The notes beneath the pieces were generated by a model. That model made no database searches. It saw only the letters and a program-made list of their open reading frames with translations, and was not told where the DNA came from. From Lachnospiraceae bacterium MD335 (GTDB lineage Bacteria; Bacillota; Clostridia; Lachnospirales; Lachnospiraceae): 64,000 bases of DNA. A program made the position numbers and the translations under genes. Positions 14,363-32,303 of the stretch are shown here, one piece after another. The stretch spans positions 913,263-977,262 of the forward strand of contig KE159628.1 of the NCBI GenBank assembly GCA_000403335.2, given 5' to 3'. Within the stretch, counting starts at the first letter, position 1, and each line of letters begins with the position of its first letter.

Positions 14363-15602
14363 AAGAGAAGGAAAACCGGAGCTTTTGGTGCCGGCGAGCA
14401 GCTTGGAGGTTTTAAGGACTGCCGTGATATTCGGAGCGGATGCCGTTTATATCGGAGGAGAAGCATTTGGACTGCGTGCGAAAGCGAAGAACTTTTCGCC
14501 GGAAGATATGGCGGAGGGGATTGCGTTCGCGCATGCACACAATGTAAAGGTGTATGTGACTGCGAATATCCTTGCGCACAACGGGGATTTGGAGGGTGCG
14601 CGCAGGTATTTTGAGGAACTGAAAGCATTAAAGCCGGACGCGCTGATTATTTCCGACCCGGGGATGTTTATGATTGCAAAGGAGATTTGCCCCGAAATCG
14701 AAATCCATATTTCGACGCAGGCGAACAACACGAATTATCAGACGTACCGGTTTTGGTGGCAGCAGGGCGCAAAACGTGTCGTGTCGGCACGCGAACTGTC
14801 GCTTGCGGAAATCAGGGAGATCAGGGATAATATTCCGCAGGAGATGGAAATTGAGAGTTTTATACACGGCGCAATGTGTATTTCGTACTCGGGGCGCTGT
14901 CTTTTGTCGAGTTATTTTACGGGCAGGGACGCAAACCGCGGCGCGTGTACGCATCCGTGCCGTTGGAAATACGCCGTTGTGGAGGAACAGCGTCCGGGAG
15001 AATATTTTCCGGTGTATGAGAACGAGCGGGGGACGTATATTTTTAACTCAAAGGATTTGTGCATGATTGAGCATGTTCCGGAAATCGTTGCGGCGGGGAT
15101 TGACAGCTTTAAGATTGAGGGGCGCATGAAAACCGCGCTGTATGTGGCGTGTGTGGCGCGCACGTACAGAAAGGCGATTGACGACTTTTTTGAGTCGGAG
15201 GAAAAATATCGTGCAAACATGGAGTGGTACAGAGCGGAGATTGCAAAGTGCACTTACCGGCAGTTTACTACGGGATTTTATTTTGGAAAGCCGGATGAAA
15301 ACACGCAGATTTATGACAGTAATACGTATGTCAATGAGTCCGTTTATTTGGGAATGGTCGATTTAGTTGACGAGAGGGGCTTTGCGAAGTTTGAGCAGAA
15401 GAACAAATTTTGCGTGGGCGATGTGATAGAAATTATGAAGCCGGACGGAAGGAATGTCAGTGCAAAGGTGCTTTCGATGTATAATGAGGACGGTGAGGCG
15501 GTCGAGAGCTGTCCGCATTCAAAACAGGTGTTATATGCAAAACTGAGCGAGCAAGTTAATAAGTATGACATTATGCGGACAGAGGCGGGGAAAGAACGCT
15601 GA
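14352..15602 (+). CDS. U32 family peptidase-like, tRNA uridine-34 hydroxylation (TrhP type)
   Basis: A 416-aa U32 protein with the family signature around ESFIHGAMCISYSGRCLLSS and the later cysteines of RGACTHPCRWKY, typically Fe-S or metal ligands. N-terminus PELLVPASSLEVLRTAV is standard. It overlaps trmR by 11 nt. Known family role: with prephenate-derived chemistry, TrhP proteins hydroxylate U34 of tRNA; the neighbouring trmR product then methylates it. A single U32 gene is present here, where B. subtilis has two (yrrN, yrrO). Confidence 0.85.
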   Translation: MNNKREGKPELLVPASSLEVLRTAVIFGADAVYIGGEAFGLRAKAKNFSPEDMAEGIAFAHAHNVKVYVTANILAHNGDLEGARRYFEELKALKPDALIISDPGMFMIAKEICPEIEIHISTQANNTNYQTYRFWWQQGAKRVVSARELSLAEIREIRDNIPQEMEIESFIHGAMCISYSGRCLLSSYFTGRDANRGACTHPCRWKYAVVEEQRPGEYFPVYENERGTYIFNSKDLCMIEHVPEIVAAGIDSFKIEGRMKTALYVACVARTYRKAIDDFFESEEKYRANMEWYRAEIAKCTYRQFTTGFYFGKPDENTQIYDSNTYVNESVYLGMVDLVDERGFAKFEQKNKFCVGDVIEIMKPDGRNVSAKVLSMYNEDGEAVESCPHSKQVLYAKLSEQVNKYDIMRTEAGKER

Positions 15603-15777
15603 AAAACGAACGTTTTGCTTGTTAAACATTATGGGAAAAAGTAGTTTAGATTGTTAAAAAAAGCACATTATTAACCATAATAATACAATTTTAATTGACT
15701 TTCAACCCCTTAGTAAATTTTAACAAAAAATTCATAAATTTCCCCATGCTGTACATGAAAAAGAACAAAGAATAATA

Positions 15778-15928
15778 TTGACGTGTATACAAAATAGAGG
15801 CTATAATACAGTTAAGAATGTTAGACAAAAAAAGTCAATACTACTTAGGTAATAACATTCGCAATCTAAGTAACCAGCGGTGTGAATACCGCATAAAAAT
15901 TTAAATTATATTTAGGAGGCTTTGCAAA
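15778..15928 (+). promoter_or_regulatory. Promoter and structured leader of the split pfl operon
   Basis: In the 326-bp AT-rich gap after the U32 gene, TTGACG (15778-15783), an 18-bp spacer and TATAAT (15802-15807) form a good promoter. The leader of about 115 nt carries two small hairpins, ACTTAG/CTAAGT (15843-15848, 15866-15871) and GCGGT/ACCGC (15877-15881, 15888-15892), before AGGAGG. Upstream, TTGTTAA half-sites occur (15619, 15645 region) but no full Rex-type palindrome is seen. The rest of the gap (15603-15777) holds nothing recognisable. Confidence 0.7.
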
Positions 15929-17968
15929 ATGAGACCAGAATGGACAGATTTTGTAGGTGGAAAATGGGACAGCGAAATTAACGTACGTGACTTTATTCAG
16001 AGAAACTACGAGCCGTATGACGGGGATGAAGCTTTCTTGGCAGCACCTACGCAGAACACAAAGGATTTATGGGACATGGTACTTGATCTTCAGAAGAAAG
16101 AGAGAGAGGCCGGCGGCGTATTAGATATGGACACAAAGGTTATCTCTACAATTACTTCTCACGGACCGGGATACCTTGACAAGAACAAGGAAACAATCGT
16201 TGGTTTCCAGACAGATAAGCCGTTCAAGCGTTCTTTACAGCCTTATGGCGGTATCAGAATGGCAGAGAAGGCTTGCGCTGACAACGGATACGAAGTAGAT
16301 CCTGAAGTAAGCGAGTTCTTCTCAACACACAGAAAGACACACAACGCAGGCTGCTTTGACGCGTACAATGCAGAGATGAGAGCATGCCGTTCATCACACA
16401 TCATTACAGGTCTTCCTGATGCTTACGGACGCGGACGTATTATCGGCGATTACAGAAGAGTTGCGCTTTACGGTATTGACAGACTTATCGAGGATAAGCA
16501 GGCTCAGAAGGATTCAACAGGACGTGTTATGACAGATGATGTTATCCGTCTTCGTGAGGAAATTTCAGAGCAGATGACAGCGCTCAAGATGATGAAGGAA
16601 ATGGCTGCTTCTTACGGCTGTGATATTTCTAAGCCGGCTACAAATGTACAGGAAGCGATTCAGGCTACTTACTTCGGATATCTTTGCGCGGTAAAGGAGC
16701 AGAACGGTGCGGCAATGTCACTTGGACGTACTTCTACATTCCTTGACATTTATGCACAGAGAGATTTAAAGAACGGCACATTTACAGAGGAGCAGATTCA
16801 GGAGTTCATTGACCACTTCATTATGAAGCTTCGTCTTATTAAGTTTGCACGTACACCTGAGTACAATCAGATTTTCGCAGGCGATCCGGTTTGGGTAACA
16901 GAGTCACTTGGCGGTGTCGGCGTTGACGGACGTCCTTTGGTAACAAAGATGTCATTCCGTTATCTGCATACATTGGAGAACCTTGGACCCAGCCCTGAGC
17001 CGAACTTAACAGTTCTTTGGTCTACAAGACTTCCTGAGAACTGGAAGAAATACTGTGCAAAGATGTCTATCCAGACTTCTTCAATCCAGTATGAGAATGA
17101 TGACCTTATGAGAGTAACACACGGTGACGACTATGCAATCGCCTGCTGCGTATCTTCAATGGTAGTTGGTAAGGAAATGCAGTTCTTCGGCGCTCGTGCA
17201 AACCTTGCAAAGTGCTTGCTCTACGCTTTGAACGGTGGTGTGGACGAAGTGACAAAGAAGCAGGTTGGACCGAAGTATCGTCCGGTTGTCGGCGATGTGC
17301 TTGACTATGATGACGTATTTGCTAAATTCATGGATATGATGGAATGGCAGGCAGATGTATATGTAAATACATTGAACATCATTCACTATATGCATGATAA
17401 GTACTGCTATGAGAGAGCACAGATGGCTCTTCATGACAGAGACGTTAAGAGATATTTCGCAACAGGTGTTGCAGGTCTTTCTATCGTTGCTGACTCATTA
17501 TCAGCAATTAAGTATGCAAAGGTAAAACCGATTCGTGACGAGGACGGCATTATCGTTGATTTCGAGACAACAGGCGAGTTCCCGAAATATGGTAATGATG
17601 ATGACAGAGTTGACCTGATTGCACAGGATATCGTTCACAGATTCATGACAGCAATCAGAAGACATCACACCTACAGAAATGGTGTTCCTACAACTTCAAT
17701 CCTTACGATTACGTCTAACGTAACTTACGGTAAGGCTACAGGTAACACACCTGACGGACGTAAGAAAGGACAGCCGTTTGCTCCTGGTGCAAACCCGATG
17801 CACGGACGTGATACACATGGTGCAGTCGCTTCACTGTCATCTGTATCAAAGCTTCCGTTTAAGGATGCACAGGATGGTATCTCAAATACCTTTACAATCA
17901 TTCCGAACGCTCTTGGTAAGGAAGCAAAAGTATTCTCAGGAGATATTGAGTTGGATTTGAGCAAGTAA
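15929..17968 (+). CDS. Pyruvate formate-lyase core subunit without glycyl-radical domain
   Basis: 679 aa matching the alpha/beta barrel of pyruvate formate-lyase (formate C-acetyltransferase): pyruvate + CoA to acetyl-CoA + formate. The catalytic cysteine pair is in AIACCVSSM (C406, C407). The protein stops just after [15 protein letters not shown]; canonical enzymes of 740-760 aa continue for about 80 residues through NLVGLLDGY, HLNVNV and the radical loop RVSGYA. That missing piece is encoded separately at 18344. The split is not a simple frameshift: 375 nt, a second gene and two independent ribosome binding sites intervene. Activity must require assembly with the separate glycyl domain and activation by PflA (31545). 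RBS AGGAGG; codon use is of a highly expressed gene. Confidence 0.93.
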
Positions 17969-18017
17969 TTCGGTTGAATTGTTTAGAGTACAAAACAGAA
18001 AGGAATAGGTGTAATCA

Positions 18018-18221
18018 ATGGACGAGAAATCAATGATTGATGACCTTGTGGCACAGCTTGATGCAGGATTTTCCAAAGATAAGGCTGTGGGACATTTCAA
18101 TGTGAATGTCGACGAAGGCTCTTCTACAAAAGAAGTTGAAACGCTCGGATGTACAGACTGTTCCGCTAATCCGATGGCGTGCAGTGTTCCGACATTGCAT
18201 GAGGGGTTAGACAAAGAATAA
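18018..18221 (+). CDS. Cys-rich small protein, paralog of the glycyl-domain N-terminus
   Basis: 67 aa, second gene of the split pfl operon. Residues 1-31 (DDLVAQLD... GHFNVNV) align with residues 1-29 of the stand-alone glycyl-radical protein (DNLVSLLD... HHLNVNV), which in intact pyruvate formate-lyase is the segment leading into the radical domain. After this the radical loop is absent; instead there is a tail with C45, C48 and C55 (C-x2-C-x6-C) and no glycine loop. I know no described family for it. It could dock on the core in place of the glycyl domain, as an oxygen shield, a metal-binding or redox sensor subunit, or an assembly factor; all are inference. RBS AAAGGAATAGG. Confidence 0.75.
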   Translation: MDEKSMIDDLVAQLDAGFSKDKAVGHFNVNVDEGSSTKEVETLGCTDCSANPMACSVPTLHEGLDKE

Positions 18222-18235
18222 AATTTAGGGAGGCG

Positions 18236-18300
18236 TACGCTGAGGCAAACGTTGCCTTGGCGTATCAAATCCTTACATGCAGGCTTGTATTGATACAGGC
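18236..18300 (+). promoter_or_regulatory. Two stable hairpins between pfl small genes
   Basis: Hairpin A: TACGC/GCGTA outside AGGCAA/TTGCCT with a symmetric TG/TG internal loop (18236-18264). Hairpin B: GCTTGTAT/ATACAGGC with a two-base turn (18283-18300). No T-tract follows either, so they look like RNA-processing or stability elements that could set the ratio of core to glycyl-domain mRNA. Hairpin B resembles the one before uppP. Confidence 0.55.
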
Positions 18301-18343
18301 TTGTGAACATAGCAGATTTTAAAAATTTTAGGAGGTATGAAAA

Positions 18344-18583
18344 ATGGACAACGCAGCACAGGTTGATAACTTAGTATCTTTATTAGACGGTTATGCTACA
18401 AAGGGTGGACACCACCTGAACGTTAATGTATTGAACAGAGACACACTGTTAGACGCACAGAAGCATCCTGAGAACTATCCTCAGCTTACAATTCGTGTTT
18501 CAGGCTACGCTGTAAACTTCATCAAGCTTACACCGGAGCAGCAGGCAGACGTTATCTCTCGTACATTCCATGAGGCAATCTAA
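18344..18583 (+). CDS. Stand-alone glycyl-radical domain of pyruvate formate-lyase (GrcA-like)
   Basis: A 79-aa protein that is the missing C-terminus of the core at 15929: [28 protein letters not shown], then [15 protein letters not shown] with the radical glycine G54, and the [11 protein letters not shown] end. Core plus this domain totals 758 aa, the size of a normal enzyme. The E. coli spare-part protein YfiD/GrcA (127 aa) has a comparable domain but an unrelated N-terminus; here the sequence follows the pyruvate formate-lyase C-terminus throughout. Strong RBS GGAGG. A terminator follows at 18597. Confidence 0.92.
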
Positions 18584-18596
18584 TTGTAAATGAATA

Positions 18597-18641
18597 AAAG
18601 CCGTTACTTTGTGATTAAAAACGCAGAGTAACGGCTTTTTT
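18597..18641 (+). terminator. Terminator of the pfl operon
   Basis: A 12-bp stem AAAGCCGTTACT (18597-18608) pairs with AGTAACGGCTTT (18627-18638) and continues into T residues. Confidence 0.85.
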
Positions 18642-18682
18642 GCATGGATGCTTTTTATATCGGTTCTTATGTTTACAACGCA

Positions 18683-18711
18683 TTGTTTGTATTGTTTAGA
18701 CATGCTATAAT
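18683..18711 (+). promoter_or_regulatory. Promoter of the secreted DUF5722-like gene
   Basis: TTGTTT (18683-18688), 17-bp spacer, TATAAT (18706-18711), about 70 nt before the ATG. Confidence 0.6.
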
Positions 18712-18780
18712 GTACAGCGTAAGTTAATACATCATAAATCTGTGTAAGGTGCAGATTACAAAACAAGAAAGAGGTGTTTT

Positions 18781-20397
18781 ATGCAAAAGGAACGGGGGAT
18801 TAAGAAAACAAAACGGTGGGTGTCGGCAATCCTGCTTGCTATGCTTTTGGCGGTATGTATTCCGGCATTGGCATTTGCGGCAAACGTTACACTGACGGTA
18901 AACAGTTGTGCTATAACAGGTAAGGATGTAACCGTAACGGTATCAGGTGCACCGGCGCAGGCAGCGGACGGAATGTATTACTTGTTTGAATTGAAACCAT
19001 ACGAAGAGGAAATCGGCGCGCGTCAGAATTACTGTGCGATGGCTCCGGCAGCAGAGATTGCGACATTTACGACATCACTTGATTTTAATACGGCAAATTC
19101 CAAACTGTATTCGCGTTTTGTAGTGGCAGTTTCGGAAAACGGCATGTTTGTTCCGGTCAGCAATGCGTCGTACATCACAAATCCGGAAGCCGTTGCAGCG
19201 AAGGCAACAGGGTATCCGGTTCGAAGCAGGAAAGGCTTAACTGCGGACTGGCAGTATAGCAGTGATTTGTCTGCACTTGGAGCGGGATATGCCGCATATG
19301 AGCTTGACATTAGCCGTTTTTTTGCAGGCGGCGGCACGAATTATACATATAACGGCAAGACATACAGTTTTAATTCCGGCGTTGTCAGCGAATATGATAT
19401 TGTATGTCAGAAGTTTGCGAAGGAAGGCTGCAACGTGATTATGGTAATCAAGAATTCCTTCAATCCGGCAACGGCAGATTTGATTGCTCCTTTGGGACGC
19501 ATACCGGGCAAGAACTGCTATGCGATGAACGTTTCAGAGCAGGCGGGTGCGGAGAAGATTGCGGCATTAATGTCGTTTCTTGCAAACAGGTATTCGGGTG
19601 ATAAGGGAACGATTCACTCATGGATTATCGGCAACGAGATAAACAACAATTCGCCGTGGCATTATGCGGGCGACATGGGAGAACAGCAGTTCTCTGAGTA
19701 TTATGCAAAAGAGTTTCGACTTTGCTATAATGCAATCAAGAGTCAGAATGCAGGCGCAAGAGTATTCATTAACATTGATCAGCGTTGGACGCATACGGAC
19801 GCCAATACACTTGCATATAAGGGCAGAGATGTTTTAGATCATTTTGCACAGTCTATCAGTGCATCCGGCAATATTGACTGGGGACTATCAATCCACCCGC
19901 ATCCGGTTCCGCTGTTTAACTGCCAGTTTTGGAATTTGCCGCCCGGATATTCCGGAATGAGAAATCTTGTTGTTCATTCTGATGATACAGGAATGGTCAA
20001 TCCGACAAATTTAGAGGTTGTCACAAACCATATGGCACAGCCGTTTTTGCTTGCACCAAGCGGCAATGTACGTCATATTCTGATTTCTGAGATGGGCTTT
20101 ACATCGGCGAATCCGAGCCTGCCGACAGACCAAAATATTCAGGCGGCGGCAATGCAGTATGCGTATAAGCTGGCGGCATCCAATCCGTTTATCGAGGGTA
20201 TTGTTATTCACAGACAGATTGACCATGCTTCCGAGGTTGCAAATGACGGTATGGCAGTTGGTATCAGAGATGCCGGCGGAGCGCCGAAGGTATCGTTTAA
20301 TATGTTCAAATTTATGGATACCGCTGACCCGACGTATGCGAACTTTGCGCTGCCGTACATTGGCGCTTCAAGCTGGGCGGATGTTGGGTTGAATTAA
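18781..20397 (+). CDS. Secreted glycoside-hydrolase-like protein, probably DUF5722 family
   Basis: 538 aa with a clear signal peptide (basic N-terminus, hydrophobic 19-34, cleavage near AFA-AN). The C-terminal two thirds look like a (beta/alpha)8 glycosidase of the GH-A clan type: GNEINNN could give the acid/base glutamate (near 284) and ISEMGFTS the nucleophile (near 438), with SIHPHPVP between. Substrate unknown. Stand-alone unit with its own promoter and terminator. Family naming is from memory of the HPHPVPLFN-type motif, hence moderate certainty; a catalytically active secreted glycosidase is an inference. Confidence 0.65.
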   Translation: MQKERGIKKTKRWVSAILLAMLLAVCIPALAFAANVTLTVNSCAITGKDVTVTVSGAPAQAADGMYYLFELKPYEEEIGARQNYCAMAPAAEIATFTTSLDFNTANSKLYSRFVVAVSENGMFVPVSNASYITNPEAVAAKATGYPVRSRKGLTADWQYSSDLSALGAGYAAYELDISRFFAGGGTNYTYNGKTYSFNSGVVSEYDIVCQKFAKEGCNVIMVIKNSFNPATADLIAPLGRIPGKNCYAMNVSEQAGAEKIAALMSFLANRYSGDKGTIHSWIIGNEINNNSPWHYAGDMGEQQFSEYYAKEFRLCYNAIKSQNAGARVFINIDQRWTHTDANTLAYKGRDVLDHFAQSISASGNIDWGLSIHPHPVPLFNCQFWNLPPGYSGMRNLVVHSDDTGMVNPTNLEVVTNHMAQPFLLAPSGNVRHILISEMGFTSANPSLPTDQNIQAAAMQYAYKLAASNPFIEGIVIHRQIDHASEVANDGMAVGIRDAGGAPKVSFNMFKFMDTADPTYANFALPYIGASSWADVGLN

Positions 20398-31544: not shown

Positions 31545-32303
31545 TCAGTTTACAGGGATACCGCGGCGCTCCTTGATACCGTCAAGAATATACTGCTTTA
31601 GTTCGGGAACTTTTCCCTTGTCCATATCGGGAACACCCTCAAGACGGTACTCCATGCCAAGCTCCTTGTATTTTTTCTTGCCCATTGTATGGTACGGAAG
31701 AACATCCAATGCTTTGAGATTTTTCAGACCGCCGATAAAGACGCCAAGCCTGTGCAGATCATCAGGATTGTCGGTAATACCGGGAACGACCACATGGCGT
31801 ATCCACATTTCCACGCCTTTTTTGTCAAGATACTCTGCAAACGCAAGAATGCCTTCGTTTGGCTGTTTTACAAGCTCCTTGTGTTTTTCGGGATCAATGT
31901 GCTTGATGTCGAGCATTACAAGATTTGTCACTTCACACAGCTTGTCAAGCTTTGCAAGCCATTCGGGATTGTTGTTCGGCTTGTAGGCAATGCCCGAAGT
32001 ATCGAGACAGGTGTGAATGCCGCGCGCGCGCGCTTTTGTGAAAAGGTCAAGCAAAAAGTCAATCTGCATCAGCGGTTCTCCGCCCGTGACCGTAATGCCG
32101 CCTTCGCGGTAAAAAGGCTTATTGCGCTCATAATTTTCAAGGATTTCTTCCGGCTCCATAAGCGTTCCGCCGTTCATTTCCCAAGTGTCCGGATTGTGGC
32201 AGTACGCGCAGCGCATGGGGCATCCCTGCACAAAGACAACGTAACGCACGCCCGGCCCGTCAACGGTTCCAAAAGATTCCAGTGAATGTATTTTTCCTTT
32301 CAT
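31545..32303 (-). CDS. pflA: Pyruvate formate-lyase activating enzyme
   Basis: A radical-SAM enzyme of 252 aa from 32303, with GGAGG 9-13 bases upstream; the open frame extends further but without a ribosome binding site. The SAM cluster motif is CPMRCAYC (C-x3-C-x2-C), followed by GGITVTGGEPLMQ. It abstracts hydrogen from the RVSGYA glycine, here on the separate domain at 18344. It is 13 kb from the pfl genes and on the opposite strand. Confidence 0.93.
   Translation of the reverse strand: MKGKIHSLESFGTVDGPGVRYVVFVQGCPMRCAYCHNPDTWEMNGGTLMEPEEILENYERNKPFYREGGITVTGGEPLMQIDFLLDLFTKARARGIHTCLDTSGIAYKPNNNPEWLAKLDKLCEVTNLVMLDIKHIDPEKHKELVKQPNEGILAFAEYLDKKGVEMWIRHVVVPGITDNPDDLHRLGVFIGGLKNLKALDVLPYHTMGKKKYKELGMEYRLEGVPDMDKGKVPELKQYILDGIKERRGIPVN

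Follow-up and report, generated by a model that had tools for sequence, protein, structure and literature searches.

Pyruvate formate-lyase (PFL) has a central place in the fermentation of anaerobes and is well known for its sensitivity to oxygen. A 2025 paper, in the parts available, describes most glycyl radical enzymes, PFL included, as single-chain homodimers (PMC12590467). The window analysed here, a stretch of 64,000 nucleotides from Lachnospiraceae bacterium MD335 (contig KE159628.1, positions 913,263 to 977,262), holds a PFL-like gene whose product stops before the region of the radical glycine, and this region is encoded by a small gene further downstream. Are these pieces one enzyme kept in parts, what stands between them, and why would an anaerobe keep them separate? 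Our results make it likely that the locus encodes a PFL that is obligately modular, its radical subunit being exchangeable, with a probable oxygen-linked supply of spares and a cysteine-bearing adaptor. The parts, in window coordinates, are as follows (GR, glycyl radical; aa, amino acids).

15929..17968, plus strand: PFL core subunit, 679 aa (TIGR01255 positions 2-665 of 744, E=0, 1099.4 bits)
18018..18221, plus strand: middle protein, 67 aa, with a GR-domain-like N-terminal half and a cysteine motif in the C-terminal half (GCTDCSANPMACSVPTLHEG)
18222..18343, plus strand: intergenic stretch between the middle and GR genes, with two strong predicted hairpins and then the Shine-Dalgarno (SD) site of the GR gene
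18344..18583, plus strand: GR subunit, 79 aa, radical Gly54 (RVSGYA), NF038360 GrcA3
18596..18640, plus strand: terminator-like hairpin with a U run, 3' of the GR gene (fold -26.1 kcal/mol, z -9.05)
31545..32303, minus strand: PflA, the pyruvate formate-lyase activating enzyme (TIGR02493, 293.9 bits, cut-off 231.75)

The core and its radical subunit

The core is above the equivalog cut-off of TIGR01255 (994.2 bits), and its match ends at position 665, the radical-glycine domain being absent from the chain and encoded separately. The GR gene matches positions 662-743 of the same model and passes the NF038360 cut-off with 160.9 bits against 158. The two matches overlap by about four profile positions, and therefore no part of the canonical enzyme is missing. 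Aligned with E. coli PFL, the core extends up to residue 680 and the GR gene covers residues 678-758. The glycine of RVSGYA, residue 54 when counted on the GR translation, faces E. coli residue 734 (alignment-internal positions were counted by hand), and the loop reads RVSGYA in 151 of the 152 GR open reading frames (ORFs) of our set and RLSGYA in the other. The active-site pair Cys406-Cys407 was invariant in an alignment of 50 rows, and the ACC-S pattern was present in all but one of 123 complete split cores. The original prediction had described exactly this: a PFL divided into a core that keeps its cysteine pair and a separate GrcA-like gene with the radical glycine, which together amount to one canonical enzyme; the data agreed with it on each of these points.

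The AF2 model of the core, built on the 50-row alignment, reached a pLDDT of 85 and fell below 50 at residues 654-679, where the C-terminal tail is acidic and is modelled as unstructured. Foldseek superposed this model on E. coli PFL (2pfl) with a TM score of 0.93 over the query and 63% identity in the structure alignment. In nine comparisons within the genus, dN/dS was 0.03-0.06 for the core and 0.06-0.19 for the middle gene, with synonymous sites near saturation in several pairs; the substitution pattern indicates that all three genes are under purifying selection. It is very probable, judging from the sequences, that the core and the GR subunit form an active complex, which would convert pyruvate and CoA to acetyl-CoA and formate.

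A broken gene could give a similar picture, and we considered a frameshift, an assembly error and a programmed read-through that restores a single chain. The contig is 1.14 Mb long, in a genome of 4.96 Mb on 19 contigs that is 97.8% complete. The core and GR genes do share a reading frame in the window, which speaks for such an artefact, but a conserved third gene and two intergenic stretches stand between them and the layout is common to whole clades. Across 126 distinct loci with the split, the GR gene began in frame with the stop of the core in 41, off by one in 55 and off by two in 30, with gaps of 16-673 nt, and an SD-like site preceded the GR gene in 124. The varying frames and gaps and the GR genes' own SD-like sites rule out these explanations, and we regard the chance of an artefact as practically negligible. 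Long open frames of about 785-900 aa, tried as fusions with inserts, were also rejected: at the loci read (e.g., L023, L025, L026, L162, L248, L254 and L258) the core has its own stop.

A second, full-length pfl would make the operon accessory, and the search for one that the original prediction had proposed came back empty. The MD335 genome has one PFL-like barrel gene, two stand-alone GR genes and a single PflA that passes its cut-off, and no full-length pfl was found in it. In the same family, a TIGR01255 search of 60 genomes from 60 genera, each at least 95% complete, gave 29 with a full-length enzyme, 21 with a split one, 10 with neither and none with both. Six of the 10 had no TIGR01255 match and four had weak ones only, and in two of the 21 split genomes (G165 and G096) the core was divided between contigs. 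Of 31 genomes in a second family, 6 had a full-length enzyme, 22 a split one, 3 neither and again none both. No full-length pfl was found in 26 further split genomes, so that none was seen in the total of 69 split genomes surveyed, nor was one found in the 24 genomes of the genus; missing or fragmentary cores in four of the latter (G002, G005, G008 and G013) were put down to broken assemblies. As none of the 69 split genomes has a full-length copy, the GR-less core is their only PFL.

It is also conceivable that the core is dead or a different enzyme, and that the GR subunit serves only to repair other enzymes of the glycyl radical type. A GR domain could in principle be used by other enzymes, and some split genomes do hold further glycyl radical enzymes, seen as weak TIGR01255 matches. 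The core, however, passes the equivalog cut-off, has its Cys pair and shows the low dN/dS given above, and the MD335 genome has no other PFL-like barrel gene, which makes this explanation very improbable.

The middle protein and its cysteine motif

The account of a two-gene split held for the split itself and was incomplete in its parts: there are three, and the middle gene appears to be a partial GR paralogue without the radical glycine. The middle protein of the window had no Pfam or NCBIfam match at E 1. When the profile of its family was compared with the GR profile by hhalign, residues 3-35 only were matched, at 93.1% and E 3e-7. Weak matches to GrcA3 were given by 29 of 43 aligned middle proteins at E ≤0.1 (best E 5e-5), and nine other families were matched by one or two middle proteins each, which is at chance level. 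Positions 1-33 of the profile also cross-matched GR domains, even in full-length PFLs of distant families, at E of about 1e-4 to 1e-3. These profile comparisons indicate that the first half of the protein, about 33 residues, is homologous to the start of the GR domain. In the analyst's reading of the alignment, a G-H-x-N-V motif in this part faces E. coli PFL residues 703-707, which would place it in strand beta10 if the fold description in the portion of PMC8683613 at hand is followed. The radical-loop glycine (RVSGY) was absent from the 43-row consensus, from the alignment rows inspected and from the other middle proteins read.

The C-terminal half carries a conserved cysteine motif with the consensus C-x4-8-AC-x-VPTL. 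The form C-x5/6-[AP]C-x-[VSAIT]PTL was present in 103 of 113 distinct middle proteins, and nine more were recognised by eye with other spacing or residues; the L256 ORF stops after GCTDCAK and lacks the remainder of the motif, being a truncated gene or a variant. By these features the middle proteins constitute a small family without a Pfam or NCBIfam model. Full-length matches (E <1e-14) were found in 42 of 295 genomes of the order, each with a stand-alone GR gene, and in two of 398 genomes of the phylum, both Lachnospiraceae. Eight pattern stretches in viruses gave no confirmed case, and plasmids gave no match. A known Fe-S subunit of the benzylsuccinate synthase (BSS) or 4-hydroxyphenylacetate decarboxylase (HPAD) type was tried as a candidate and rejected, the profile search of PDB chains at E 10 giving four unrelated weak matches. 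One genome (L260, G135:C97) has a second pair of middle and GR genes in addition to a complete operon.

The split arrangement is not special to the MD335 genome. It had been proposed to look for the same gene order in relatives, and there it was found: middle and GR genes lie 3' of the core in 19 of 20 loci of the genus, the other (L029) being cut by a contig end. Among 30 loci picked by GR score, which are the best-scoring ones and not a random draw, the core was upstream in all and the middle gene was present in 24. All 131 loci with the three parts have the order core, middle, GR on one strand. Many of these were picked by the middle gene, including L071-L150 (the best 80 of 359 confirmed), and for this reason the gene order in L071-L150 cannot count as independent evidence. 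Most of the named records are metagenome bins of Lachnospiraceae; one is a named isolate, Eisenbergiella tayi DSM 26961.

Ten split cores in the tree set have no middle gene, and nine of them carry a cysteine tail of their own. The tail was VPTL-like in five (L157, L158, L255, L259 and L261) and of the form C-x-C-x-E-P in four (L159, L162, L170 and L257), which may be an equivalent of the first type. The VPTL-like tails are scattered over the tree, requiring five changes by parsimony, at least two of them forced by well-supported branches. Because the motif occurs both in trans and in cis, it suggests that the core and the motif meet. A further tail, V-F-x-G-D-(L/I), sought with a looser pattern, was found in 96 of 99 cores with a middle gene (the other three by eye), in seven of the 10 without and in none of 50 full-length enzymes.

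A partial GR paralogue without the radical glycine and with conserved cysteines could also be a redox-controlled inhibitor that competes with GR, the split serving to tune PFL activity by dosing or sequestering free GR. The stretch 18219-18343 is predicted to fold into the two hairpins at -43.2 kcal/mol (z -5.69), and those before the GR gene possibly set the dose of the subunit. The accessory subunit of benzylsuccinate synthase controls radical chemistry, according to the part of PMC12590467 seen. Nevertheless, the cysteine motif fused to the core in some lineages would inhibit permanently, and we judge such a regulatory split unlikely.

As for the surroundings of the operon, an inverted-repeat search of 18222-18343 with seed 9 gave no pair, an Rfam scan of 15500-18900 gave no family, and the terminator-like hairpin at 18596-18640 was not among the sites from the consensus scan. 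A promoter-like TTGACG-18-TATAAT (11/12) lies at 15778-15807, about 120 nt upstream of the core; such sites are not above chance in the region (9 found, 6.8 expected). The next gene, 18781-20397, encodes a 538-aa DUF5722 protein unrelated to PFL, with a hydrophobic N-terminus that looks signal-like by eye. The pflA gene is not beside the operon here, lying 13 kb downstream on the opposite strand; its start was set by the analyst at the ATG before KGKIHSLES, and the TIGR02493 match is at G000:C12:944855-945556. A pflA-like ORF begins no more than 500 nt past the GR gene in 39 of 78 named loci, and the window is not of this kind.

Origin of the split and second copies of the radical gene

In trees of the core columns, the split cores made up one group, which also held two fused genes, L176 and L189. 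The first tree included 24 of 80 named loci. In the tree of 42 rows, hand-picked after the first, the split group was supported at 100/100 (bootstrap/SH-aLRT), and an AU test rejected the split rows being together without L176 and L189 (p = 2e-6; the test was framed after the first tree had been seen). Two changes suffice by parsimony for the split and fused states, on a tree that excluded 17 name prefixes, whose rows were near-identical or on long branches, and retained only seven named loci. These trees indicate that the split arose once, with one later re-fusion; several independent splits would need more changes by parsimony than a single origin. The fused GR domain scored above the GrcA3 cut-off in the L176 genome and just below it in the L189 genome, as expected if a GrcA3-type subunit had joined back on. 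Neither junction has an insert. No stand-alone GR gene and no true middle gene was found in the two re-fused genomes, the weak match in G265 being its own GR domain.

The second GR gene of MD335 (L001, G000:C13:801100-804297) lies 3' of a groEL end and a Crp/Fnr-family gene, and is followed by ORFs that by eye resemble NfeD and stomatin/SPFH proteins. Eighteen such unlinked GR loci were found in the genus, with a Crp/Fnr gene in 16 of the 17 testable ones; it is absent from L267, and L265 is cut by its contig. The GR gene of L281 (G002) was excluded from this count of spares as an operon copy, its contig being as long as that of L085, where the middle gene is present. Outside the genus, loci were drawn from survey rows, which are unevenly sampled, and Crp or redox-defence neighbours were present at five of 10, as listed here.

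L186: Crp, rubrerythrin, thioredoxin and desulfoferrodoxin near the unlinked GR gene
L188: thioredoxin and rubrerythrin near the unlinked GR gene
L262: Crp and thioredoxin near the unlinked GR gene
L252: thioredoxin about 1.2 kb from the unlinked GR gene
L279: Crp near the unlinked GR gene, by tblastn only

These second copies bear on a neutral account, in which a stop and a new start appeared a single time at a domain junction that tolerated them and persisted through constructive neutral evolution, giving a permanent complex without repair advantage whose middle protein is a structural adaptor compensating the break. The single origin with long stable inheritance fits this account, the one re-fusion shows that loss of the split is possible, and half of the unlinked copies outside the genus have no redox neighbour. 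On the other hand, a permanent complex would have little use for second GR genes that are kept away from the operon and often adjoin Crp/Fnr or redox genes, and a neutral split seems rather unlikely to us.

Apart from this, a search of a phage collection with the GR subunit returned 1539 records, mostly enterobacterial by tally, and seven short unannotated records (H1-H7), putatively viral, have GR domains 65-84% identical to that of the window.

A possible working order and its known relatives

In the modular enzyme that we propose, the core would hold the substrate site and the Cys pair, and PflA would put the radical on Gly54 of the GR subunit. This subunit would then dock in the core and supply the tenth barrel strand and the radical loop for normal PFL chemistry. 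A cut by oxygen at Gly54 would cost the 79-aa subunit alone, and a fresh copy would replace the damaged one; this cost argument follows from the established oxygen cleavage chemistry of PFL. The idea of cheap damage in the original prediction gets some indirect backing from the unlinked second GR genes, which often have Crp/Fnr or redox-defence genes as neighbours. The second GR gene of the genus, beside its Crp/Fnr-family regulator, would probably be an emergency supply. We consider oxygen-linked exchange of GR to be fairly probable. The middle protein, with its copy of the beta10 region and its Cys motif, would most likely bind where GR docks in the core, either in trans or, in other lineages, as a fused tail, and could be a placeholder, a recognition element and a thiol guard for as long as GR is missing or undergoing activation.

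The E. coli enzyme, as described in the sections of PMC8683613 available, gives some reason for such a helper. There, oxygen cleaves PFL at Gly734, and YfiD on the cleaved core restores wild-type activity. The fold of residues 693-759 comprises beta10, the radical loop and a helix, and residues 696-733 are a recognition element, with the first 60 residues of YfiD also mattering for binding. When the core was cut at 695, binding of the spare part was not detectable by calorimetry and activation was 32-fold lower. Since the split core ends before 695 and its GR subunit lacks the YfiD extension, poor unaided assembly would be expected by the logic of that partial account. By this analogy the obvious candidate for a placeholder, and for a detached form of the recognition element that stands in for 696-733, is the middle protein. 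Such a placeholder or adaptor role is possible, short of probable. Slightly more tentative is the complete scheme, in which a GR-derived Cys adaptor fills the empty radical site, as tenth strand and guard of the Cys pair, until activated GR displaces it, and the enzyme is held pre-cleaved and ready for repair with a second GR supply under oxygen control.

Several observations weigh against these proposals. The AF2 model of the middle protein is weak (pLDDT 60, with a helix at 3-17), and the GR homology is limited to its first half. One split core (L172, G211) has neither a middle gene nor a Cys tail and reads ALGC, not ALGK, at the junction, so the Cys element is not strictly required. Five of the 10 unlinked GR loci outside the genus (L173, L177, L179, L253 and L280) showed no Crp, thioredoxin, rubrerythrin or desulfoferrodoxin, and the loci of the genus count once because they share one ancestral layout. 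A second GR gene was present in five of the 21 split genomes of the family (at most seven), and the spare copy is therefore not general.

With a naturally split enzyme, the departure of the radical domain from the core, its meeting with the activase and its return can be tested directly, because the parts can be mixed separately. Such an enzyme also lends itself readily to the swapping or labelling of its radical subunit. Many Lachnospiraceae could be misjudged where annotation or metabolic models require PflB to be full-length. For the cell, a separate radical part with a Cys-bearing helper may keep an oxygen-fragile enzyme repairable.

Our search of the open-access literature, with most subscription papers outside it, found no paper that describes a split PFL or GrcA3; PFL and its activase are mentioned in a Roseburia genome paper, with no split in the parts seen (PMC7478625). 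PFL chemistry, the spare-part logic and the GrcA3 name are known; within that search, neither the obligate layout in three parts nor the Cys adaptor had been described. Others already have GR-less PFL-type enzymes under study, as PDB deposits 38la and 38lb ("Formate acetyltransferase") are the solved sequences closest to the core. Neither chain matches the GR domain at E 0.001; known here by sequence, they are natural chains or cut constructs. In a tree with ten more name prefixes dropped, 38lb fell inside the split group and 38la beside it, and neither was among the best 50 Foldseek rows for the core model in the April 2026 fold library.

E. coli PflB (TIGR01255; 2pfl, 1h16) has the barrel fold, the Cys pair and the radical-loop sequence in common with the split enzyme. 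It is a single chain, however, whereas here the chain stops at about E. coli residue 680 and a gene of its own encodes the remainder. YfiD/GrcA and phage T4 Y06I are likewise free GR domains with a radical glycine that replace a lost PFL C-terminus, as far as PMC8683613 could be consulted, but they repair a full-length enzyme after cleavage, while this core never has a GR domain. YfiD has an N-terminal extension of about 60 aa that the GR subunit of the window lacks, and the GR gene is below the TIGR04365 (YfiD/GrcA) cut-off, with 99.7 against 170 bits and a match to positions 65-125 of 126 only. It passes NF038360, "autonomous glycyl radical cofactor GrcA3", and therefore the subunit family is already named; the model leaves out the obligate split core and the middle gene. 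The accessory subunits of BSS and HPAD are also small, Cys-bearing proteins on a glycyl radical enzyme, and BSS-beta makes contact with the GR domain and promotes the formation of the thiyl radical, according to the portion of PMC12590467 seen. These subunits bind [4Fe-4S] and their catalytic chains retain the GR domain, whereas the middle protein appears to be partly GR-derived, has no relative found in the PDB by profile search, and accompanies a core whose GR domain is a separate protein.

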